Source of the DNA: a virus
Reading direction: 5' to 3' (one strand)
Length of the DNA: 24,124 nucleotides
Virus record (IMG/VR): IMGVR_UViG_3300010354_000641
Location: 1-24,124 of that record
Shown here: piece by piece, positions 22,960-23,007 of the stretch
Position numbering within the stretch: position 1 is the stretch's first letter
How the letters are laid out: the number at the start of each line of letters is the position of its first letter
The notes under the pieces: generated by a model
What the model was told of the DNA's origin: nothing
What the model saw: the letters and a program-made list of their open reading frames with translations, nothing else
The model's database searches: none
Program-made: the position numbers and the translations under genes

Positions 22960-23007
22960 GCGCCATCCTAGCGGATAGGTTCCGGATCTGCACCGCTATG
23001 ATGGCCC
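22960..23007. promoter_or_regulatory. Divergent control region: 15-bp inverted pair of promoter-like elements
   Basis: On the plus strand CCGCTATGATGGCCC (22993-23007) contains TATGAT (22997-23002), ending 21 nt before ATG 23024. On the minus strand CCGCTAGGATGGCGC (22974 down to 22960) contains TAGGAT, 31 nt before the sigma start at 22933. The two agree at 13 of 15 bases and face outward, 18 nt apart. No clear -35 hexamers were seen. This could be a pair of divergent -10 boxes or a dyad operator. Confidence 0.55.

Follow-up and report, generated by a model that had tools for sequence, protein, structure and literature searches.

In phages of the lambda type, the divergent promoters PR and PRM overlap, with operators of roughly 17 bp between them, three to the junction, and the same operator type is repeated elsewhere in a genome that also carries an integrase and CI/Cro-type genes. 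Mycobacteriophages of the L5 type rely instead on stoperators, short asymmetric repressor sites that come in phage-specific variants and are scattered through the genome in dozens of intra-operon copies. In lytic phages (T4 and the like), early genes are preceded by -10 boxes like those read by the host primary sigma, and the early promoters of the cyanophage Ma-LMM01 are similar to host SigA sites (PMC5780444). Here we set these systems beside a junction between two divergent genes in a linear viral fragment of 24,124 nucleotides (IMG/VR record IMGVR_UViG_3300010354_000641; the whole stretch is hereafter called the window). The window carries tail genes, a lysozyme gene, a sigma-70 gene and a Gp157 gene, and its nearest isolate, the Synechococcus phage S-LBS1 from Lake Bourget, shares the divergent sigma/Gp157 junction. 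From sequence comparisons, we propose that the junction serves as a compact early promoter in both directions, with a single regulator site in common that is most likely an operator, and we put the probability of this reading at about 0.6.

The intergenic region is 90 bp long. On its left, on the minus strand, lies the sigma-70-family gene (22022 to 22933; 303 amino acids), with Pfam matches to regions 1.2, 2 and 3 and none to region 4; on its right, on the plus strand, lies the Gp157-like gene (23024 to 23575; PF05565; PHROG "Mu Gam-like end protection"). A first-pass annotation of the window had singled out two mirrored 15-mers between these genes, CCGCTAGGATGGCGC on the minus strand (22960 to 22974) and CCGCTATGATGGCCC on the plus strand (22993 to 23007), and a check of the sequence confirmed their coordinates, strands, 13/15 identity, 18-nt gap and outward orientation toward the sigma and Gp157 genes. 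Both genes are preceded by a correctly placed TANNNT hexamer that we read as a -10 box, TAGGAT toward sigma (22965 to 22970, minus strand) and TATGAT toward Gp157 (22997 to 23002, plus strand). Between the hexamers is a 17-bp core, GGTTCCGGATCTGCACC (22978 to 22994, plus strand), a candidate regulator-binding repeat that scores 44.1 bits against a 31-column matrix; it lies 7 nt from the left box, the spacing found at nearly all sites, and 2 nt from the right box. Neither a TTGACA-like -35 hexamer at 16 to 18 nt forming a promoter-like pair, nor a canonical sigma-70 promoter, nor a terminator was found in 22900 to 23060. Within the putative sigma leader, TGTTACAGA (22942 to 22950) is invariant across the three closest phages.

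The first-pass annotation held that the two 15-mers resemble each other more than is expected in so short a region, and this proved correct. Dinucleotide-preserving shuffling of the 90-bp region, repeated 400 times with inverted 15-mer pairs within 40 nt scored, never yielded a best pair above 12/15, and nowhere else in the 24-kb window do inverted 15-mers no more than 40 nt apart match at 13/15 or better. The 13/15 match, together with a mirror similarity of 14/15 in G016, the nearest relative of the window, would suit a reading in which the 15-mers themselves act as an operator with dyad symmetry or form a hairpin in a transcript. The extended similarity is nevertheless limited to these two genomes. 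When the window, G016 and G017 are aligned, a run of 15 core bases is the same in all three while the arms vary, and G017 has kept the core and -10 positions while its arms have drifted. One of the 15 arm pairs is unpaired in all three genomes. In G017, 2 of the 15 arm positions have changed on both sides with pairing preserved, as the dyad reading would have it, but 4 further pairs that are intact in the window or G016 are broken. Moreover, in a set of 28 distinct divergent elements, left and right arms matched at 6.89/15 when both came from one element and at 6.93/15 when they came from different elements. Sharing an element thus makes two arms no more similar; the 15-mers as such are not a selected dyad, and this comparison largely refutes both the dyad and the hairpin; both promoters also point outward, so that the dyad would not lie within their transcripts. 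Pairing is not kept in relatives, and we rejected a dyad or hairpin function for the 15-mers as highly improbable.

The part of the junction that recurs is the core. Upstream regions of sigma genes on related IMG/VR contigs contain a common sequence, and in a scan of IMG/VR with the 19-mer TAGGTTCCGGWTCTGCACC, which was blind to neighboring genes, the exact core was found in 25 stretches, 3 of which hold two exact copies. When up to three mismatches were allowed over whole records, 28 of 29 related records matched, compared to 0 to 2 matches per strand for a reversed-pattern control. Copies with at most two mismatches are found mainly at operon starts. Among S-LBS1-like cyanosiphoviruses, one genome can have as many as five copies of the core. 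Good copies mostly occupy the gap between the helicase and A51/primase genes, the Gp157/sigma gap, or positions before SSAP or before an early small ORF, the gene types having been assigned via similarity to S-LBS1 proteins. S-LBS1 itself has a variant core, CATACCGyATyGGCACC, at two sites, both of them divergent early junctions. Most sites score 26 to 50 bits against the 31-column matrix, for which the reversed-sequence maximum is 8.1; a few weaker matches of about 18 to 21 bits occur elsewhere, some within late genes, and probably reflect chance or the decay of former copies. The core columns belonged to the search seed, so that core conservation arises partly by construction; the flanks and the permutation test described below are the evidence free of this bias.

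The window holds a single copy of the core, as expected for a fragment of mostly late genes, and the regulon that we propose is based on its relatives. We also compared the larger gaps of the window with G016 and G017 in search of a separate late promoter, for which the alignment was good enough only from 19074 onward. More distant marine siphoviruses (S-CBS1, S-CBS3 and KBS-S-2A) have a related sigma gene in another gene context, and a matrix scan of the stretches examined found no element in them. An exact search of GTDB genomes with the 19-mer gave no matches, and a Gp157 search of the same genomes gave one 8-kb contig of a Synechococcaceae MAG without the element. On that contig (L152, Synechococcaceae WB9_2_112), the Gp157 relative at 4056 to 5404 has a different divergent neighbor and no core. 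Separately, many short repeats of CCTAACC or GGTTAGGCAG extend from the primase-polymerase gene to the record end (L149; S-LBS1, 34237 to 34641; start of L148); they are iteron-like and possibly mark a replication origin.

The flanks of the core point to promoters. At nearly all curated sites, a leftward -10 hexamer (TATGAT, TAGGAT, TACGAT or similar) is followed by 7 bases and then the 17-bp core. This hexamer was outside the search seed, and its key positions are conserved as A in 31/32, T in 31/32 and A in 30/32; most left boxes are preceded by a CGS triplet. On the other side, a rightward TANNNT hexamer 0 to 3 nt past the core accompanies a divergent gene, on the primase side or the sigma side: 26 of 27 sites with such a gene have the hexamer, compared to only 2 of 25 without (Fisher P = 2.6e-11, a statistic that ignores kinship between phages). 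In relatives, TAnnnT hexamers are retained to the left and right of the core even as the bases around them drift. The dependence of the right box on a divergent gene is the best evidence that the 15-mers hold what appear to be genuine -10 boxes, and it sustains the earlier suggestion of two -10 boxes of one promoter class. The first-pass annotation had proposed to judge its element by further copies at operon starts and by conservation in relatives; this test came out in support of the core with its -10 boxes and against the extended mirror pair.

The sites within a genome also vary together. Cores of different, nonhomologous sites in one genome differ by a mean distance of 2.26, compared to 3.59 when cores were shuffled among genomes within each site type, and none of 20,000 permutations reached the observed value; the result held without the three strongest genomes (0.0002). 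For example, G012 has G at core position 16 at all four of its sites, and G008 has C at core position 7 at all three. This per-phage concert, seen in the permutation test and in the S-LBS1 site pair, resembles that of immunity groups. The simplest cause would be co-evolution of the sites with a protein that binds them; copies might also be kept alike by gene conversion.

We therefore considered what might bind the core. As we envisage it, two -10 boxes of the TATAAT class without recognizable -35 boxes would serve as promoters read by the host primary sigma, and the 17-bp candidate site that they flank would be bound by a phage-encoded DNA-binding protein. On the left promoter, such a protein would occupy about -36 to -20, and on the right promoter about -29/-32 to -13/-15; sitting inside the RNA polymerase footprint of both, it could shut or gate them together. 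The most economical explanation is steric repression at the two promoters, in which the factor would repress rather than activate; it ranks first, though not far ahead. In relatives the same site stands at several early promoters per genome, and the helicase/primase, SSAP, Gp157/sigma and small-ORF operons may be controlled jointly through it. The sigma gene would then be one target of an early switch, with its product presumably serving later genes. The computed basis for this reading is the repeated core, the fixed left -10 box, the conditional right -10 box and the concerted variation. The annotation's proposal of a dyad operator that switches both operons thus survives in part: joint switching is plausible if it works by way of the 17-bp core instead of the mirrored 15-mers.

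Several carriers have an integrase or serine recombinase gene, as would suit a temperate switch; the S-LBS1 integrase is described in PMC6157547. Related phages differ in integrase type, with a serine recombinase in G016 and a tyrosine recombinase in G006 (L133, 4703 to 5959; L128, 11535 to 12530; both plus strand); no integration gene was seen in the window fragment. Two features sit less well with an operator. The core is only partly dyad symmetric (GGTTC-N7-GCACC, 5 of 8 pairs), and its variants do not retain the symmetry. The constant 7-nt left spacing, in turn, points to an activator or a promoter element no less than to an operator.

Accordingly, we weighed a reading in which an activator or specificity factor, for example the HTH/zinc-ribbon protein A39, binds the core, recruits RNA polymerase and switches all the early operons on. 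Besides the fixed left spacing, promoters without -35 boxes and the concerted core variation agree with it, as does the finding that most core-bearing genomes examined encode an A39 homologue, whose HTH is predicted to have three helices. However, activator sites are not usually centered near -28 or -22, where the centers of these sites fall, the right-hand gap varies from 0 to 3 nt, and A39 tracks the core weakly (rho 0.31; 27 of 500 permutations). We consider activation through the core unlikely.

A39 is the sole HTH protein found in most of the core-bearing genomes examined. Members of its family (for example L133, 5992 to 6372; L083, 9736 to 10194; L128, 12826 to 13128; all minus strand) have cysteine-rich segments, in most cases a zinc ribbon, and an HTH resembling sigma region 4.2; AlphaFold gave a confident model for the three-helix domain only, the predicted HTH (mean pLDDT, 67.8). 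A39 is more variable than the core, and its helix differs between G002 and G013, whose cores agree at two sites. As a regulator, then, A39 is a candidate only. In the sigma genes of A39-bearing phages, the helix that corresponds to this HTH lacks its usual residues. No repressor family recurred among 50 early ORFs scanned, no CI-like repressor was found, and one early ORF that matched winged-HTH models was rejected since it is not shared among genomes. A ribbon-helix-helix-like protein of 47 amino acids, encoded after a DNA methylase gene (L128, 8890 to 9033, plus strand), is conserved in several relatives; as a regulator it was rejected, since the stretches of G016 and G017 examined gave no homologue. 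The distance between SSAP proteins correlates with that between cores (rho 0.74), an exploratory correlation in a small set of 9 genomes.

The first-pass annotation had offered sigma autoregulation as one explanation. In such a reading, the elements would be promoters of the phage's own sigma, and the core would act as an unusual -35 or extended element. Several observations lend themselves to this. A canonical -35 is not found at the element, most left -10 boxes follow a CGS triplet, and the spacing from core to left -10 is fixed. In addition, the phage sigmas have other residues in place of those through which region 4.2 contacts a TTGACA -35, with region 2.4 largely retained. Yet a sigma that read the core should vary with it, and we found no such co-evolution. 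Core distance does not track sigma distance (rho 0.10, with 116 of 500 permutations as high). The sigmas of S-LBS1 and L021 are 93% identical, yet their cores differ at 5/17 positions; conversely, the sigma of the window clade is only 47 to 52% identical to others, yet its junction core equals that of G001, and region 4.2 helices are completely different between clades with the same core. A promoter motif that does not co-vary with the phage sigma falls outside a phage-sigma-dependent class. Furthermore, the sites precede early replication and recombination genes, which would need to be transcribed before any phage sigma is made. Autoregulation was therefore not upheld, and we regard a phage sigma as a doubtful reader of the element. 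A division of labor, in which the phage sigma would read the -10 boxes and A39 would bind the core in place of region 4, the pair driving transcription in both directions from a single core, seems very unlikely to us.

Returning to the bidirectional promoter with its shared operator, we found that its orientation differs between clades. The core reads toward sigma in 19 matrix-scored core-bearing relatives and, by eye, in S-LBS1. In the window, G016 and G017, which form a separate, well-supported sigma branch, it reads toward Gp157 (window, 22978 to 22994; L133, 7608 to 7624; L136, 10712 to 10728). In this clade, then, the cassette as a whole faces the other way with respect to its two genes; the segment between the arms may have flipped, or the sigma gene may have been exchanged together with its promoter. 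The turn amounts to a natural experiment on the equivalence of the two promoter sides. More broadly, the 17-bp site defines a candidate regulon for freshwater Synechococcus-type siphoviruses that would place replication, recombination, Gp157 and sigma under a single switch, and in which phage-specific core variants would act as immunity groups. The question of lysogeny in such cyanophages is directly testable with S-LBS1, an isolate with two copies.

Among known counterparts, S-LBS1 (MG271909) has the same sigma/Gp157 junction, two -10 boxes and a variant core that, unlike that of the window, points toward sigma. Its second copy lies at the helicase/primase junction, and the core there departs at 5 to 8 of 17 positions from those that other genomes have at the equivalent and sigma/Gp157 sites; the available portion of the S-LBS1 paper reports no such element (PMC6157547). 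With the early promoters of lytic phages, including those of Ma-LMM01, the locus shares a host primary-sigma-type -10 box at early genes, but it has no -35 box and adds a 17-bp core that varies between phages and in step within each. The likeness to the lambda arrangement lies in overlapping divergent promoters around an operator-sized site, in the repetition of that site elsewhere in the genome, and in the integrases of the phages concerned. Unlike lambda, there is one core per junction rather than three, the core is partly symmetric, no CI/Cro-type genes were found, and one target gene encodes a sigma factor. Finally, the locus resembles the L5 stoperators in having a short asymmetric site that is scattered in the genome and has phage-specific variants, but here the copies number 1 to 5, and most of them lie directly at early promoters.
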